Part shown: positions 11,530 through 52,270 of the stretch, piece by piece
Layout of the letters: every line of letters starts with the position of its first letter
Numbering within the stretch: the stretch's first letter is position 1
DNA from: Alphaproteobacteria bacterium
Lineage (GTDB): Bacteria; Pseudomonadota; Alphaproteobacteria; Rickettsiales; UBA998
Assembly (NCBI GenBank): GCA_004292675.1
Contig: RDXO01000024.1
Coordinates: 1 to 64,000, forward strand
DNA length: 64,000 bases
Direction of reading: 5' to 3'
Notes under the pieces: model-generated
What the model was told of the DNA's origin: nothing
What the model saw: only the letters and a program-made list of their open reading frames with translations
The model's database searches: none
Translations under genes and position numbers: made by a program

Positions 11530-11650
11530 TATACTCATCGCACATGAAGATGCGTAGTATCAAGATGTGGAAACGATGAGTATTTTTAATAAAATATACC
11601 TTTAATTTCACTTGTAAGGACTCAAATCCTTGAAGTGAAATGGGTATATA
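11530..11650. repeat. Two-hairpin dispersed repeat, family M, copy 1
   Basis: About 120 bp with one hairpin at each end: TACTCATCG/CGATGAGTA on the left and ATTTCACTT/AAGTGAAAT on the right, closed by TATACC and GGGTATA. Related copies lie at 15178-15299 and, inverted, at 23327-23451. No open frame is shared by the copies. It looks like a non-autonomous element. Confidence 0.88.
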
Positions 11651-15177: not shown

Positions 15178-15299
15178 TATACTCATCGCCCACGCACGAT
15201 GCGTAGCATCAAAATGTGGAAACGATGAGTATTTTTGAGTAAGATATACCCTTAATTCCATTGCAAGGACTCAACTCTTTGAAATGAAATGGGTATATT
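15178..15299. repeat. Two-hairpin dispersed repeat, family M, copy 2
   Basis: Same orientation as copy 1 at 11530-11650, with the same CGATGAGTA and GAAATGGGTATA ends. It runs up to the start of the next gene, and an ATG inside its last bases opens a false upstream extension of that gene. Confidence 0.88.
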
Positions 15300-38570: not shown

Positions 38571-38672
38571 GCTATTAGTGCATTAGCCCCCAAAAAAATA
38601 ACACTTGGCAAATGATCAAAATAGATTATAAAGCAGATCACATACTTACAGAACAAACTATGTGCGGATTTT

Positions 38673-41036
38673 GTGATTAAAAAAATACTAATGATAATCC
38701 TACGCCCCTTATGGCGTAGACGATATGGGATGTTGCGGCGCATACGTTTTGTGTCAGGCTGGTTGCTAAAAAACTTAGGAATGCTACCACTTTCACCGCG
38801 TGTAAAAATGGCGATTCATGATATAATGATGCTTGCCATATCCTCATTGATTGTGCAGAGTCGCACCTATCAAGCGTGGCAAACATCAGCTTCTGGAACG
38901 CGCCGTGTGCAGCGTTTGCTTGCAGGGGATAAAGATACGCAGCTTCCCGATGCATTATTGCCCTATGCTCCTTATGCGGAACTTTGGGATGCACTAGAAG
39001 CACGCCCTATGCGCGAAGATGTCCCATGCATCGATGTGATTATCCCCGTCTATCGTGATTATGATCAATCGTTGAATGCGATGTATCGTGCGATAGAAAC
39101 ACGTATCCATAATAAGACACCCTATCGGGTGGTAGTCATCAATGATTGCTCTCCTGATGCACAACTCACGGAAGCATTGCGATCACTCGCGCAACGTCAC
39201 TTATTCACCCTAATGGAGAATCAAGAAAATCTTGGCTTTGTGAAAACAGTGAATAAAGCGATGCGTCTAGAGCCTAGCCGTGATGTGGTGTTGTTGAATT
39301 CGGATACGGAAGTGTATCATGATTGGTTGGATCGTATGATTGCTGCATCGGCTTCTCATCCACGTGTGGCAACAATCACGCCTTTTTCTAATAATGCGGA
39401 AATATGCAGCTATCCGTATTTTGTTCGCGCCAATATGATGGCGTTAGAATGTGAGTATGCAACCTTGGATAGCCTCGCTGCGCACGTCAATCATGGTGCG
39501 GTTGTGGCAGTTCCCACGGGCATTGGCTTTTGTATGTGGATTGCCCGTGCCGCACTTGATGTGGTGGGATATTTTGATGAAGAACATTTTGGCAAGGGCT
39601 ATGGTGAGGAAAATGATTTTTGTTGCCGTACCACTGCGCATGGTTTTGTGCATCTTATGGCGTGCGATGTCTTTGTGCGTCATGTCGGTGGGTCTTCATT
39701 TGGAAGCAGTAAAAACAAGCTAATCGCAAAAAACTATCAGATATTATGTGGGTTGCATCCAGAATATCATGGTCAGGTACAGGATATTCTTCGTCGTGAT
39801 CCGATGGCGATCTATCGTCAAGCCTTAGATGTTGCGCGTATCGATGCCTATTGGCAGAGCCAACATTATACTAAAGGCGCGATCATGATGGTTAATCATA
39901 CGCTTGGAGGTGGCACAGAGCGTCATATGCGTGAGATGATTGCATCATGTGCGGGGGATGCCATCCCGTGCATTATCCTCACACGTGATCCTGATGATGA
40001 GGATGTATTGATGTTGCATGTAGAGGGGGTGCAGCCCACCCCGAATCTATCGTTCCGTATGAGTCATGATCATGCAGCGATGTTGGATGTGTTGCGTCGT
40101 CTCAATATACGCCATATGCATGTGCATCATCTCATTCATTTTCCGTCACGCATCATGGAATATCTGCGTAGCCTAAGCCACGATTTAGGCATTGCCTATG
40201 ACATGACGCTACATGATTATTTCCCCATTTGCCCGCGTGTGAATCTGATTGATGATTCGGGCTATTATTGTGGTGAACCTGCGGTGACGACATGCGAACA
40301 ATGTGTGCGCTCGCATTATTCCTTTGTGGGGAATCATTCCGTATGGGAATGGCGGTTTCGCTATGCAGAGTTTTTGGGGCAAGCACGGCGCGTCTTTGTT
40401 CCCAGCGAAGATATGCACCAGCGCATGATGCAGCATATGCCGCATCTTAACTATGCGGTGCGCGTTCATGCGGAGCGTTTTGATGATGTGCCATTAGCAC
40501 GCACCATGCCACGTATGCACGGGGAACGCCTGCGTGTCGCGGTTGTCGGAGCATTGTCACGCATTAAAGGTTCGGCAGTGCTTGAAGCGTTGGTGCGTGA
40601 TGTAGCGGGGCGCGATTGCGCGATTGATTATACGATTATTGGTTATACGGATAATGCTGCACTCACCAAAGGTTTACCGCATTGCCATGTGACGGGGGCA
40701 TATAAGGAACATGAGATTGGGCAGTATCTTGAAGATGTTGCCCCGCATCTTATCTTGATTCCCAGCCTATGGCCAGAGACCTATTGCTATGCTCTTTCCA
40801 TTGCGTGGCGGTTTGGTATCCGCCCCGTGGTGTTTGATATTGGTGCGCCCGCTGAGCGTGTGCGTGCGCTTGGTGCAGAGGGGGGGGACGTGTTGCCTTA
40901 TGCATGGGTGCATGAACCGCAGCGGATTAATGATTGGTTGGCGCAGCAAGGCTATCACTCGCAGCCCCTTGTACGCCCTGAAACGGTGACATATGCTTCG
41001 ATGCAGGATGATTATTATGGGGAGTTGGTGTTGTAG
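38673..41036 (+). CDS. Two-domain glycosyltransferase (GT2 plus GT-B)
   Basis: 787 aa. The first catalytic domain (about 115-335) is GT2: DVIIPVYRDYDQSL, the nucleotide pocket VVINDCSPD, the DxD-like NSDTEV, and a late RHVGG-F. The second half (about 400-785) is a GT-B-type domain with NHTLGGGTERHMREM near its start and the donor-site segment PSLWPETYCYALSIA near its end. Such fusions build polysaccharides or rhamnan-like surface glycans. The GTG start is followed by an ATG at 38691 as an alternative. It stands alone here; the acceptor is unknown. Confidence 0.88.
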   Translation: MIKKILMIILRPLWRRRYGMLRRIRFVSGWLLKNLGMLPLSPRVKMAIHDIMMLAISSLIVQSRTYQAWQTSASGTRRVQRLLAGDKDTQLPDALLPYAPYAELWDALEARPMREDVPCIDVIIPVYRDYDQSLNAMYRAIETRIHNKTPYRVVVINDCSPDAQLTEALRSLAQRHLFTLMENQENLGFVKTVNKAMRLEPSRDVVLLNSDTEVYHDWLDRMIAASASHPRVATITPFSNNAEICSYPYFVRANMMALECEYATLDSLAAHVNHGAVVAVPTGIGFCMWIARAALDVVGYFDEEHFGKGYGEENDFCCRTTAHGFVHLMACDVFVRHVGGSSFGSSKNKLIAKNYQILCGLHPEYHGQVQDILRRDPMAIYRQALDVARIDAYWQSQHYTKGAIMMVNHTLGGGTERHMREMIASCAGDAIPCIILTRDPDDEDVLMLHVEGVQPTPNLSFRMSHDHAAMLDVLRRLNIRHMHVHHLIHFPSRIMEYLRSLSHDLGIAYDMTLHDYFPICPRVNLIDDSGYYCGEPAVTTCEQCVRSHYSFVGNHSVWEWRFRYAEFLGQARRVFVPSEDMHQRMMQHMPHLNYAVRVHAERFDDVPLARTMPRMHGERLRVAVVGALSRIKGSAVLEALVRDVAGRDCAIDYTIIGYTDNAALTKGLPHCHVTGAYKEHEIGQYLEDVAPHLILIPSLWPETYCYALSIAWRFGIRPVVFDIGAPAERVRALGAEGGDVLPYAWVHEPQRINDWLAQQGYHSQPLVRPETVTYASMQDDYYGELVL

Positions 41037-48200: not shown

Positions 48201-48383
48201 CCTATGGCACTGAGTATGAATATCAACTTTGTAGAACGCGATATTACCATTGGCGCGCCATCGAGTCAGTGGTGGGTACAATTATCTACGGCGATTGCAG
48301 GGGGGCTTTCTTTTGCAACGGTGTTGACCTTATTAGTCACGCCTGCATTCATCATGTTGCGCTATCGTAAGTTGGATGTGTAG
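45285..48383 (+). CDS. RND efflux transporter permease
   Basis: Proton-driven inner-membrane pump, 1032 aa, with two sets of six membrane helices around two large periplasmic loops. The N-terminal IPKESSPDVQVPIIYV, the helix-4 segment ASGMVVDAAIVVCEYADR with its proton-relay aspartate, and FPDIEPKNANILVRS at the start of the second loop are typical of the HAE1-like group. Substrate not inferable. No outer membrane factor is adjacent, so it may use a shared TolC-like channel. Confidence 0.95.
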   Translation: MMDNLISLSIRSHRVVLMMLAFIMIAGSVTYVQIPKESSPDVQVPIIYVSMFLEGISPEDGERLLIRPMEKQLRTIDNVKNMTATAQEGFASVTLEFRAGFNPDAALADVRAAVDIAKAELPAEADEPKVNEVNFSQFPVVNVVLSGNTDERTLITLARRLRDDIEGVSAVLEAKIAGEREEVLEILIDPRTLEGYNINPAEVLRRVQNNNILIAAGQMDHDHGQFRIKLSGLIENAKDLMHIPIINTKDKVVVLKDIATIRRTFKDAQSHARINGKPSVGIAVSKRAGANLIDTIAEVKKVVDRERAYWPSYIEVSYTQDTSDEVREMLSDLENNIVFAVLLVLLMVLLTMEVRSALLVASSIPASFLMGVLVLGMMGYTMNIVVLFSMILASGMVVDAAIVVCEYADRLMHQHGFTPKHAFQRAASRMFMPIFSSVLMGILVFLPLLFWPGIVGQFMKYMPITMIVVLFASLIVALIFIPTMGAVMRSKKVVRIFIEGEDEHEIMSDHPFTQRYVALLKRILHRPWRTVCIQVGGVFAVYAIFFFAGPGVEFFPDIEPKNANILVRSVGNLSLEEKDRIMKQVEKRIAPLKNEVRFFFTQAGATTVRDIPLDTIGIVQLEFVSWRYRRPAAEILNDARQRLMDLSGVIIETAKQQEGPPTGKALQLEFSSRDPDRIAPMVTRVVDALAKVEGLRDIEDDRPKPAIEWEYEVDREKAGRNDVSVAQIGQVLKLATNGVKVNAFRPDDADDEIDIVVRFPETFRTLDQLAQQRVFTSVGSLEPISNFVKRVAKNAITTIQRSEGLRTMTIKADVKEGVVVDSKVQEVADLLKTLELDPEVSIRFKGEDEEQKEAMQFLSIAFAIALFAMVVLLTAQFNSYYRMFVIMTGVFLSTGGVLIGHLISGAPFGIVMSGVGVITLAGVVVNNNIILIDTFDVLRKQGMKVQDALLLAASVRLRPILLTAGTTVLGLIPMALSMNINFVERDITIGAPSSQWWVQLSTAIAGGLSFATVLTLLVTPAFIMLRYRKLDV

Positions 48384-48391
48384 AGTGCTAT

Positions 48392-48429
48392 CACTATATA
48401 ATTACCGATCAATCGGCAATTATATAGTG
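48392..48429. repeat. Inverted repeat after the RND genes
   Basis: CACTATATAATTACCGAT pairs with ATCGGCAATTATATAGTG with one mismatch (18-bp arms, 2-bp loop). It lies 9 bp after the pump stop codon and directly before a family H hairpin. No T-run follows, so it is not an ordinary terminator. Confidence 0.8.
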
Positions 48430-48453
48430 GAAAAAGCACTATAAATCATAGTG

Positions 48454-48508
48454 TTATGATCGTTTCTTGACATAAAAAATGAGTCATTTTTTTGTCAAAC
48501 GACTATAA
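48454..48508. repeat. Hairpin repeat, family H, copy 2
   Basis: Same orientation as 4464-4517: shared AAGCACTATAAATCA upstream, then TTGACATAAAAAATGA and TCATTTTTTTGTCAA inner arms and the CGACTATAA end. The outer left arm has changed (GTTATGATCGTT), so the stem is less perfect here. Confidence 0.88.
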
Positions 48509-48518
48509 ATGTGAATGA

Positions 48519-48833
48519 CTATCGTTGTATGTTGGGAGCATTGATCGTAACATTATTTCGTTCTTCTTCAAGTTTTTGTGCAAATTTTTCATGAGGATAA
48601 CGCATCGCATACATACTTGCGCTAAATCCTAAAGAACCTGCGATGATTCCACCTAAAGCATTGGCTACATGATGCACCTTCTCAGAAGCAGAGAACATAT
48701 CCGCAACCGTGCTTCCTAAATTACGCCCAGAATGCACCATCGCTAAGGTTGCGATTGTACCTATGGCTGTAGCACAGGCAACATAGGCAACATCAGAAAA
48801 AGTCACATGATGATTTTTTTTAACTGTATCCAT
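48519..48833 (-). CDS. Small hypothetical membrane protein, 104 aa
   Basis: Unrecognised. Two hydrophobic segments (about 13-34 and 56-76) rich in Gly and Ala, with charged ends and a Glu-rich C-terminus. It converges on the RND pump genes across the hairpin repeats. Similar in style to the next rightward small protein but not clearly homologous. Confidence 0.6.
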   Translation of the reverse strand: MDTVKKNHHVTFSDVAYVACATAIGTIATLAMVHSGRNLGSTVADMFSASEKVHHVANALGGIIAGSLGFSASMYAMRYPHEKFAQKLEEERNNVTINAPNIQR

Positions 48834-49134
48834 AAAGGGATTTTACTATGATATTTGACTATAATGAAAGATTTTTTTTGTTACATTATCATGACAACGC
48901 GTAAAATGCTATTCAATATCCATATTGTTACGGCATTTGAAGAAATAACAAAAAAATATCAAAAATATGCATTTATTCTCTTGACTAATGCAAAAAAAAA
49001 ACGGCATATTATGTTTTCACTTTGTTTATGCGATTTAATTAAATCAGCGCCCACTTTTAGAATATCAAGATATTATCTTGACATTCATCAGTCACGCAAA
49101 GTGAACTACCAATTTATCTGAGGTTAGTTTCATT

Positions 49135-49362
49135 ATGTCAGACCACAATCATGGTTCGTCTTGGAAGTCTGTTGCATTGAACACTGCTGTTGCTGGTGGT
49201 GCTTTTGTCCTTGGTTTTATTGTTGATAAAGCAATCGAATCACTGACCAAAACCAAGTCCAATGTTGGAACGACTGCTGCTGCTTGGATTTTAGGTGCTA
49301 TGCACTTGAATGAGGCAATGAATTTAATGTCGAAATGGAACAATAGCGATACCAATGCATAA
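49135..49362 (+). CDS. Small hypothetical membrane protein, 75 aa
   Basis: Unrecognised. An N-terminal His-rich polar stretch (SDHNHGSSW), one Gly/Ala-rich hydrophobic segment about 15-33, and a second weaker one about 45-58. A TGAGG ribosome site lies 12 bp before the ATG. A strong terminator follows, so it is a single-gene unit. The 300 bp upstream (48834-49134) is very AT-rich and shows only a doubtful open frame. Confidence 0.65.
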   Translation: MSDHNHGSSWKSVALNTAVAGGAFVLGFIVDKAIESLTKTKSNVGTTAAAWILGAMHLNEAMNLMSKWNNSDTNA

Positions 49363-49395
49363 TCTGCGGTAGTCAGCACTTGTTGCTAATGTAGT

Positions 49396-49438
49396 AAAAA
49401 AGAGCGTTCCCAATCAAAAGCTGGAACGCTCTTTTTTA
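49396..49438 (+). terminator. Rho-independent terminator
   Basis: AAAAAAGAGCGTTCC and GGAACGCTCTTTTTT form a perfect 15-bp stem with a 13-base loop. The T-runs on both strands allow it to work in either direction. Confidence 0.95.
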
Positions 49439-49451
49439 TTTTATAGCCTAC

Positions 49452-49473
49452 GATAACGTTATCAACTATAGTT
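49452..49473. promoter_or_regulatory. Twin palindromes upstream of uvrC
   Basis: GATAACGTTATC (49452-49463) is a perfect 12-bp palindrome, followed at once by AACTATAGTT (49464-49473), a perfect 10-bp palindrome. They end 25 bp before the uvrC ATG, where a promoter or operator would be expected. Confidence 0.4.
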
Positions 49474-49498
49474 AGTTCACTAAAAAAGAGATAAAACT

Positions 49499-51343
49499 AT
49501 GGAATCGGAACTCAAAGGGCGCGAATATATTGTTGCATTTGTAAAACGCGTAAGCACGAAATCAGGCGTATATCGTATGATTGGCGCAGATGATGCGGTG
49601 CTGTATGTGGGCAAAGCAAAGAATCTTAGTAACCGTATTCGTCATTATACCAGCACTTCAGGCTTATCAAGCCGTATTATGCGGATGGTGGCACTCACAG
49701 TACGTATGGAGGTGATTGAGACGCGCAATGAGGCAGAAGCCCTGCTGTTGGAAGCGACCCTCATTAAAAAATATCAGCCTCGCTATAATATTTTATTGAA
49801 AGATGATAAATCCTATCCCTATATCTGCCTCACCAATCACGAATTCCCAAGAATCGTCAAACATCGTGGTGTGCAGCGCAAAGATGAAACCTATTTTGGT
49901 CCTTTTGCATCCGCCCAAGCGGTGGATGAAACCATTACATTGCTGCAAAAAGCGTTTTTGTTGCGCCCCTGTAGCGATACTATCTTTCAACATCGCACAC
50001 GCCCATGCTTGCAATATCAAATTAAACGATGCAGCGCGCCATGCGTGAACATCATTAATAAGCAAGATTATGCTAGCCTCATTCGTCAGGCAAGTCAGTT
50101 TTTGCGGGGCAAGAATCGTGAAGTGCAAGAGCAACTCACGCAAGAGATGCAGGTTCATGCAGCAAACTATGAGTATGAACGGGCAAGTGTATGTCGGGAT
50201 CGGATTCGCATCTTAACACAGATTCAAGAGCAGCAACAGATGGTGCAAAGCACACTCGAAGAAGCCGATGTGATTGCGTGTCACCATGAATCAGGGCAAG
50301 CATGTGTGCAGATATGGTTTTTTCGTGCGGGGATGCATTTTGGCAATCATGCCTATTTTCCCGCGCAGTTTAGTGATCAAACTCCCGAAGAATTAATCAC
50401 GGCGTTTATGGGGCAATATTATCAGACGCACCCCATCCCGAAATTGATTTTGCTGGATCGCACGCCTGCAGATGTGGAAGTGCTGCAAGATGCCCTTAGC
50501 ATGAATGCGCAGCGCAAAGTTGAGTTAAGTGTACCGCAACGTGGGGAGCGCAAACGCGTGGTGGAAGCCTTGCAGAATCAAGCACAGACGGCGTTGCAAT
50601 TACGTTTAGCACAACGTACCAGTGAATTGAAGCATCTTGAAGCGGTGCGCGATGTATTTGGTTTGAAAATCACGCCCAAACGTATTGAAGTTTATGATAA
50701 TAGCCATATTTCAGGCACGCACGCCGTAGGCGGGATGATCGTGAGTGGGGAGCAGGGCTTTGAGAAATCACAGTACCGTCGGTTTACGATTCGCTTGGAA
50801 GAACTAACCGCAGGTGATGATTATGCCATGTTGAAACAAGTGCTTACCCGTCGCCTATCTCGCCTTCGTAAGGAAGACCCCGATCGCAGCCTTGGCATGT
50901 GGGCAGATTTATTATTGATTGATGGCGGCAAAGGGCATATGTCCACTACCGCAGAGGTGCTTGCTACTTTAGGCATCGAAAATCTTCCCTTTGTGTGTAT
51001 TGCCAAAGGGGTGGATCGTAATGCAGGGCGGGAGCATTTCTTTATGCCTGATCGCGAGCCGTTTCAACTGCCTGTGAATAATCCCACCCTGCATTATCTG
51101 CAACGGTTGCGTGATGAAGTGCATCGTTTTGCGATTAGCTCTCATCGCATCAAGCGTGCCAATGCCATGCAACATTCCGTATTAGATGATATTCCCAATA
51201 TTGGATCAGCACGCAAAAAAGCCTTGATGCTGCATTTTGGATCAAGCAAAGCGGTTGCCGAGGCATCCTATGAGGCGTTGTGCAAAGTGGAGGGCATTAA
51301 TGCGCGCATTGCGCAACAGATTTATGATTTTTTTCATGAGTAA
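49499..51343 (+). CDS. uvrC: Excinuclease ABC subunit C
   Basis: Makes both cuts in nucleotide excision repair. N-terminal GIY-YIG nuclease (SGVYRMIGADDAVLYVGKAKNL at about 21-42), a UVR segment about 210-245, the C-terminal RNase H-like nuclease with YDNSHISGTHAVGGM, and a helix-hairpin-helix tail (IPNIGSARKKALMLHFGS). 614 aa is complete. The last 131 bp, from codon 572 to the stop, recur as a diverged copy at 51685-51815. Confidence 0.97.
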   Translation: MESELKGREYIVAFVKRVSTKSGVYRMIGADDAVLYVGKAKNLSNRIRHYTSTSGLSSRIMRMVALTVRMEVIETRNEAEALLLEATLIKKYQPRYNILLKDDKSYPYICLTNHEFPRIVKHRGVQRKDETYFGPFASAQAVDETITLLQKAFLLRPCSDTIFQHRTRPCLQYQIKRCSAPCVNIINKQDYASLIRQASQFLRGKNREVQEQLTQEMQVHAANYEYERASVCRDRIRILTQIQEQQQMVQSTLEEADVIACHHESGQACVQIWFFRAGMHFGNHAYFPAQFSDQTPEELITAFMGQYYQTHPIPKLILLDRTPADVEVLQDALSMNAQRKVELSVPQRGERKRVVEALQNQAQTALQLRLAQRTSELKHLEAVRDVFGLKITPKRIEVYDNSHISGTHAVGGMIVSGEQGFEKSQYRRFTIRLEELTAGDDYAMLKQVLTRRLSRLRKEDPDRSLGMWADLLLIDGGKGHMSTTAEVLATLGIENLPFVCIAKGVDRNAGREHFFMPDREPFQLPVNNPTLHYLQRLRDEVHRFAISSHRIKRANAMQHSVLDDIPNIGSARKKALMLHFGSSKAVAEASYEALCKVEGINARIAQQIYDFFHE

Positions 51344-51413
51344 CACATTCTTTGTAACGCTACTGTAACTTTTTTACATTACTATATATATTAATTTAAC
51401 TATGGAGGGCATT

Positions 51414-51680
51414 ATGTCTTGGAAAGAAAAAATAGAAAATCAAAGAGGCGAACGTGGTTCACTCAAACCAGACGTTTCAGATGTTGCGAATCAAATAGCG
51501 CAGATGGCAGAACAATCTTATGATATTGCGGCTCTTAGAGAGATGGGCATTGATACAAGTGATTTACAAAATCAGCAAGAGATAATGCAAGATCGTGTTA
51601 CGCAAGAACGCGGTAGGCTTGGATTTGCAGAGAATATTGCTGTTGAACGCGAAGCATCGGCTAAAATTAATCAGCGATAA
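51414..51680 (+). CDS. Small hypothetical protein between uvrC and its 3' copy
   Basis: Unrecognised, 88 aa, soluble and strongly helical, rich in Glu, Gln, Arg and Ala. ATG 51414 is chosen because GGAGGG lies 5 bp upstream; an in-frame ATG at 51402 has no such site. The frame stops just before the copied uvrC end begins at 51685, so the gene is enclosed by the true and the copied gene end. Confidence 0.65.
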   Translation: MSWKEKIENQRGERGSLKPDVSDVANQIAQMAEQSYDIAALREMGIDTSDLQNQQEIMQDRVTQERGRLGFAENIAVEREASAKINQR

Positions 51681-51684
51681 AAAT

Positions 51685-51815
51685 GCAAAAAAGCCTTGAT
51701 GCTGCATTTTGGATCAAGTAAAGCGGTGGCGGAGGCATCCTATGAGGCTTTGTGCAACGTGGAGGGCATCAATGCACGCATTGCGCAGCAGATTTATGAT
51801 TTTTTTCATGAGTGA
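51685..51815 (+). pseudogene. Diverged copy of the uvrC 3' end
   Basis: 131 bp aligned to 51213-51343 with no gaps and nine differences. Eight fall in third codon positions of the uvrC frame (seven silent, one Lys to Asn); the ninth changes the stop from TAA to TGA. Only the last 43 codons are present, with no start, so no UvrC can be made. See the matching finding. Confidence 0.92.
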
Positions 51816-51846
51816 TCATGAGCGTTCTGCATAACTCTCACCTCGT

Positions 51847-51916
51847 GTCATACCCGCGAAGGCGGGTATCCATGTCTTAGTGCTGTTCTGGATTCCTGCC
51901 TTACGCCAAGAATGAC
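51847..51916. repeat. Full GTCATACC repeat
   Basis: Left half GTCATACCCGCGAAGGCGGG and right half CTGGATTCCTGCCTTACGCC, ending AAGAATGAC. The ends GTCAT and ATGAC are inverted. It is the most complete form in the window. Confidence 0.88.
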
Positions 51917-52111
51917 CATTGTACGATATAGGATGGCACACCCAACGCAGCCACCCAAGAAACACTCCGCTATGAATGCGATGTATTCTAAATCCGTGAT
52001 CGCTCCCAAGCCCAATAAGAGGATGCCTAAAAGACTCATGCGTAGCATACATCTTTGTGCATAGAGGGAGGCATGATGGGGAGAGGTGGGTTTTGTAAAT
52101 TTCATAAACAT
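51848..52111 (-). CDS. Possible small membrane protein ending in a repeat
   Basis: Unrecognised, 87 aa at most; ATG six bases in gives 85. One or two hydrophobic segments (about 26-40 and 45-68). The last 18 residues are encoded by the GTCATACC repeat, which suggests the repeat has inserted into and replaced the original end. A shorter true protein or no protein is possible. Confidence 0.4.
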   Translation of the reverse strand: MFMKFTKPTSPHHASLYAQRCMLRMSLLGILLLGLGAITDLEYIAFIAECFLGGCVGCAILYRTMVILGVRQESRTALRHGYPPSRV

Positions 52112-52270
52112 AGGTTAGCAAAAGCAGACGCGCAATGCAACTATAAGTATAATGACCTTGAAATCTATTATCCTATAAGTGTATTTTTGAGGATTTTCCT
52201 AACATTTATTGTGACATATTTTCTTTAAAAAATGATTGCGATAGCGATAAAGAACGAGTATAAGTGACGG

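Follow-up and report, generated by a model that had tools for sequence, protein, structure and literature searches.

The DNA analysed here, called the window below, is a stretch of 64,000 nucleotides from the genome of an Alphaproteobacteria bacterium (contig RDXO01000024.1; genome G000) and contains an intact uvrC gene, the 3' end of which is found a second time further downstream, beyond a small gene. The features of the locus are listed below, some of them with reference to a second, congeneric genome (G001).

49499..51343, plus strand: uvrC, an intact open reading frame of 614 aa with Pfam GIY-YIG, UvrC RNase H and HhH domains, carrying the resident 3' end (tail 1)
51213..51343, plus strand: tail 1, the resident copy of a 131-bp repeat defined by alignment, stop codon TAA, attached to the uvrC body
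51344..51413, plus strand: AT-rich intergenic region (27% GC) between uvrC and the small gene; the probable site of a multicopy insertion sequence in G001 is 51375-51389
51414..51680, plus strand: small ORFan of 88 aa, preceded by a Shine-Dalgarno-like GGAGG (92 aa if the start is at 51402)
51685..51815, plus strand: tail 2, the displaced uvrC 3' end defined by alignment, stop codon TGA, without a uvrC body
51816..52270: sequence 3' of the displaced end, including a dispersed palindromic repeat (51825-51879); common to both species and diverged from 52007 on
50747..52006: tract in which G000 and G001 are 100% identical (628 + 617 nt; the 15 nt at 51375-51389 are missing from the G001 contigs)

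The two tails align over 131 bp without gaps and with 9 mismatches, so that the initial annotation, which had described 51685-51815 as the last 131 bp of uvrC with nine differences, was right in coordinates, alignment and count, and self-comparison places the repeat far above chance (E about 1e-50). Eight of the nine differences are found in codon position 3, seven of them being silent and one exchanging Lys for Asn, and the ninth distinguishes the stop TAA of tail 1 from the stop TGA of tail 2. Since this last change keeps a stop, both tails end with a working stop codon as expected for a proper uvrC end. The sequences that follow the two stops are unrelated to each other. Tail 2 starts 472 bp downstream of the start of tail 1, defining a repeat unit of 472 bp, and the stretch consisting of uvrC end, small gene and tail 2 occurs a single time in the G000 genome. 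Nearby duplications of this kind were not found elsewhere in about 253 kb of G000 sampled outside the window, matches being limited to the window and one stretch of G001. An RNA element was also considered and rejected, as the only two matches that Rfam yielded were below threshold and lay upstream of uvrC, away from the duplicated region.

The gene between the tails had been annotated as encoding a small helical protein, and the open reading frame is indeed present, with a single-sequence structure model that is mainly helical though weak (pLDDT 74, pTM 0.38). Among 344 genomes of the order, relatives of this protein were found only in G001 and, as one weak match over 46 aa, in G006, and searches of phage, plasmid, PHROG, Pfam and viral-contig collections gave no significant match. 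Similarly, a degenerate pattern for the uvrC tail matched 0 viral contigs. Only the TAA at 51678-51680 separates the small gene from the UvrC frame of tail 2, and the two share one reading frame. In addition, the 12-mer TGGAGGGCATTA is found in tail 1 (51288-51299) and again at the ribosome-binding site of the small gene (51403-51414) in the same frame, and has no further copy on either strand of the 317 kb sampled. Both the shared 12-mer and the frame agreement of small gene and tail 2 may be due to chance.

The second genome is the metagenome-assembled genome PH2015_06S_46_36 (RDZH01) of a congeneric alphaproteobacterium, the sample prefix of which appears in a paper on Microcoleus mats of the Eel River (PMC6776057). 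It is the only congener in the collections searched (n=1) and itself carries the recombined block, that is, an occupied site. Its uvrC is 98% identical to that of G000 at the amino acid level and lies with an identical end at the terminus of contig 25, and the terminus of contig 4 carries the small gene together with tail 2. The terminal sequences of both contigs recur many times in G001, mostly at contig ends, suggesting that in this genome uvrC and the small gene are most likely separated by an insertion sequence and that contigs 25 and 4 would be adjacent. Upstream of uvrC the window contains about 1.1 kb (48380-49498) with small open reading frames at 48519-48833 (minus strand) and 49135-49362 (plus strand), where the G001 counterpart comprises about 130 bp only, including a dispersed palindromic repeat. 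Other members of the family have a uvrC of at most 66% amino acid identity, without the small gene, and comparison with these distant relatives did not decide the polarity of the eight tail differences. The search among relatives that the initial annotation had proposed thus delivered one close relative with the same double structure but no genome in which uvrC runs straight into the sequence after 51815, and the collections searched contained no third genome of the genus with a donor or an empty arrangement.

How did a single genome come to carry two versions of the end of the same gene? The tails differ by about 6.2%, in third positions, which falls within the range for uvrC stretches of equal length compared between the two species (between 5 and 17 differences, with a mean of 10 per 131 bp). 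In the part of uvrC upstream of the block, G000 and G001 differ by 8.25%, with 84 of the 103 changes in third positions. If changes were distributed evenly over codon positions, as in a copy decaying in place, finding eight of eight in third positions would have a probability of 1.5e-4, as opposed to 0.20 at the rate observed for uvrC between the species, which argues for divergence of the species type. Judged from this pattern, the two tails most likely represent alleles of separate lineages within the genus and differ as orthologues do, in agreement with the earlier proposal that the copy diverged in a separate lineage while being translated as UvrC.

The comparison of the two species also bears on how the block may have moved. 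Over 45,060 aligned positions G000 and G001 differ by 6.5%, but not a single difference is found at 50747-51374 and 51390-52006, together 1,245 comparable nucleotides. At the background of 6.5%, about 2e-33 runs as long as this tract would be expected, and the next-longest identical runs between the two genomes measure 444 and then 167 nt. Both ends of the tract fall into homologous sequence, one within uvrC and the other within the downstream region. Identity over 1,245 nt against such a background suggests that the whole block recently crossed between species by homologous recombination, and the alignment indicates that the finished structure either passed recently from one of the two species to the other or reached both from a common source. 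The origin of the DNA in a related genome, as initially proposed, fits well with this tract. A cross-assembly artefact behind the identity is possible but less likely. The 444-nt tract (38603-39046) begins upstream of a glycosyltransferase-like open reading frame and runs into it, and possibly represents another exchange.

Taken together, the structure is probably the scar of a recombination between congeneric lineages that did not involve an integrase and was followed by spread of the block. As the flank after tail 2 is common to both species and diverged from 52007 on, the downstream side is regarded as the original flank, with tail 1 and the small gene as the presumed newcomers and the tail 2 side as the older part. 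Briefly, in the ancestral state one lineage would have had a uvrC ending in tail 2 with its TGA directly before the present downstream sequence and its sulfotransferase-like gene. Incoming DNA from another species of the genus would have consisted of a uvrC end, namely tail 1 with its TAA, and the small gene. It could be imagined that this DNA entered by homologous recombination within uvrC on one side and an illegitimate join at or near 51685 on the other side; alternatively, a circularised fragment may have entered through a single crossover. uvrC would have remained intact, now terminating in the incoming sequence; its former end, moved 472 bp downstream, would have been left as a non-functional remnant. 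In a second step, which the identical tract indicates, the finished block, together with flanks in uvrC and downstream, was apparently exchanged recently by ordinary homologous recombination, and in a third step, presumably later, the G001 lineage would have acquired a multicopy insertion sequence between uvrC and the small gene.

Classic homology-facilitated illegitimate recombination (HFIR) usually deletes sequence of the recipient instead of duplicating it. HFIR junctions usually show microhomology of 3-10 bp (PMC3240628), and GCAAAAAA at 51685 is a candidate for such a microhomology at the non-homologous junction. Single crossovers of circularised DNA leave target duplications of 109-950 bp (PMC3240628). 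As in these modes of entry (PMC3240628), the uvrC locus would have one homologous anchor beside which foreign DNA may have been gained, but the published cases are laboratory events with marked DNA, whereas the comparison at uvrC covers the recombined product. Transformation-induced merodiploidy is not a close match, since its duplications are 100 kb and more in length (PMC3784515). A ComEC-family competence protein scores above the family cut-off in both G000 and G001, making DNA uptake possible, although ComEC proteins are so widespread (10 of 14 control genomes) that their presence weighs little.

Could the locus also be the product of a mobile element? Integration of e14 in Escherichia coli displaces the 163-bp end of icd (PMC6379469), and the uvrC locus could be the remnant of an element of this type that brought its own uvrC end as attachment core, thereby restoring uvrC, and of which integrase and most of the interior were lost with the small gene left behind. 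The geometry is the expected one, in that an incoming 3' end has restored the target gene, the old end is displaced and both ends are present, and the small gene is an ORFan as genes of such elements often are. There is, however, no integrase in or beside the 472-bp unit, only one small open reading frame lies between the copies, and the two tyrosine recombinases detected in G000 are encoded on contigs 12 and 13, away from uvrC; moreover, neither phage, plasmid or viral relatives of the small protein nor a viral contig with the tail pattern came up in the searches described above. This reading thus appears rather unlikely, and the initially suggested resemblance to elements that enter the 3' end of a gene found no support; recombination without an integrase is favoured over site-specific integration. 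It is distinctly improbable that the block is a minimal non-autonomous passenger, an ORFan that moves between species by host homologous recombination rather than through an integrase, flanked by pieces of a conserved gene and of its surroundings and leaving uvrC functional throughout.

Tandem duplications are common, and a partly similar tandem array exists at mnmA in the window, but it is very unlikely that the uvrC end was duplicated locally in a single lineage, with the small gene enclosed by the two copies: a remnant free of selection would be expected to change at all codon positions, as the probability of 1.5e-4 illustrates, and a single duplication does not yield the observed order because the two stops are followed by unrelated sequences. 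We give no more credence to a chimera formed during metagenome assembly from the uvrC loci of two co-occurring species. The contigs of G001, a metagenome-assembled genome, do break exactly at the site between uvrC and small gene, but both genomes have the same junction of small gene and tail 2, and this junction contains no long shared sequence that could mislead an assembler. Tail 2 could finally have been selected at some time as a translated helix-hairpin-helix extension at the C-terminus of the small protein, cut off later by a stop, as small gene and the UvrC frame of tail 2 are in one frame with the TAA between them. Such agreement has a one-in-three chance, though, the TAA is present in both genomes and tail 2 terminates at the stop position of uvrC itself with a working stop, leaving this proposal highly improbable.

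The array at mnmA spans 526-1613. A copy of the mnmA 5' end (1520-1613) with 94% identity lies at 1047-1140, a 74-nt stretch containing a terminator is identical at 526-599 and 1137-1210, and two diverged paralogous small genes with 44% amino acid identity are encoded on the minus strand at 599-952 and 1209-1520. Identity is uneven along the unit, being 100% for the terminator, 44% for the small proteins (amino acids), 90% for the leader and 94% for the mnmA end, and this unevenness suggests that the array may have arisen by joining of alleles rather than by plain duplication. Its small genes were absent from the 16 other genomes searched, including G001, in which no counterpart of the array was found. 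A dispersed palindromic repeat of the GTCATACCCGCG-AGGCGGGTATCC type, of which G000 and G001 contain many copies, adjoins both duplicated gene ends (51825-51879 and 921-976). Furthermore, a leader or promoter region of 120 bp is repeated with 87% identity at 11530-11649 and 15178-15298, upstream of two open reading frames.

The probable recombination scar at uvrC shares features with several known systems. As in e14 and icd (PMC6379469), an incoming version would have taken the place of the 3' end of a protein gene, with the old end displaced downstream, but e14 is a 15-kb prophage, whereas the uvrC unit measures 472 bp and contains a single ORFan but no recombinase. At Rhs and type VI effector loci an incoming 3' module is joined to a conserved upstream part and displaces the old 3' region, and arrays of orphan immunity genes are found (PMC5361080). 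These loci encode polymorphic toxins and their immunity genes, in contrast to the housekeeping repair gene and the unrelated small gene found here. Most likely, the event is of a known kind and brought about by ordinary machinery, with an unusually clear record, and does not represent a new kind of mobile element. A single genome contains two neighbouring alleles of the end of one housekeeping gene, separated by a newly gained gene, and the same product is present in a second species. The locus would thus be a clean natural record of DNA exchange across a species boundary and would show a route by which ORFans may be gained beside core genes without visible mobile-element machinery.
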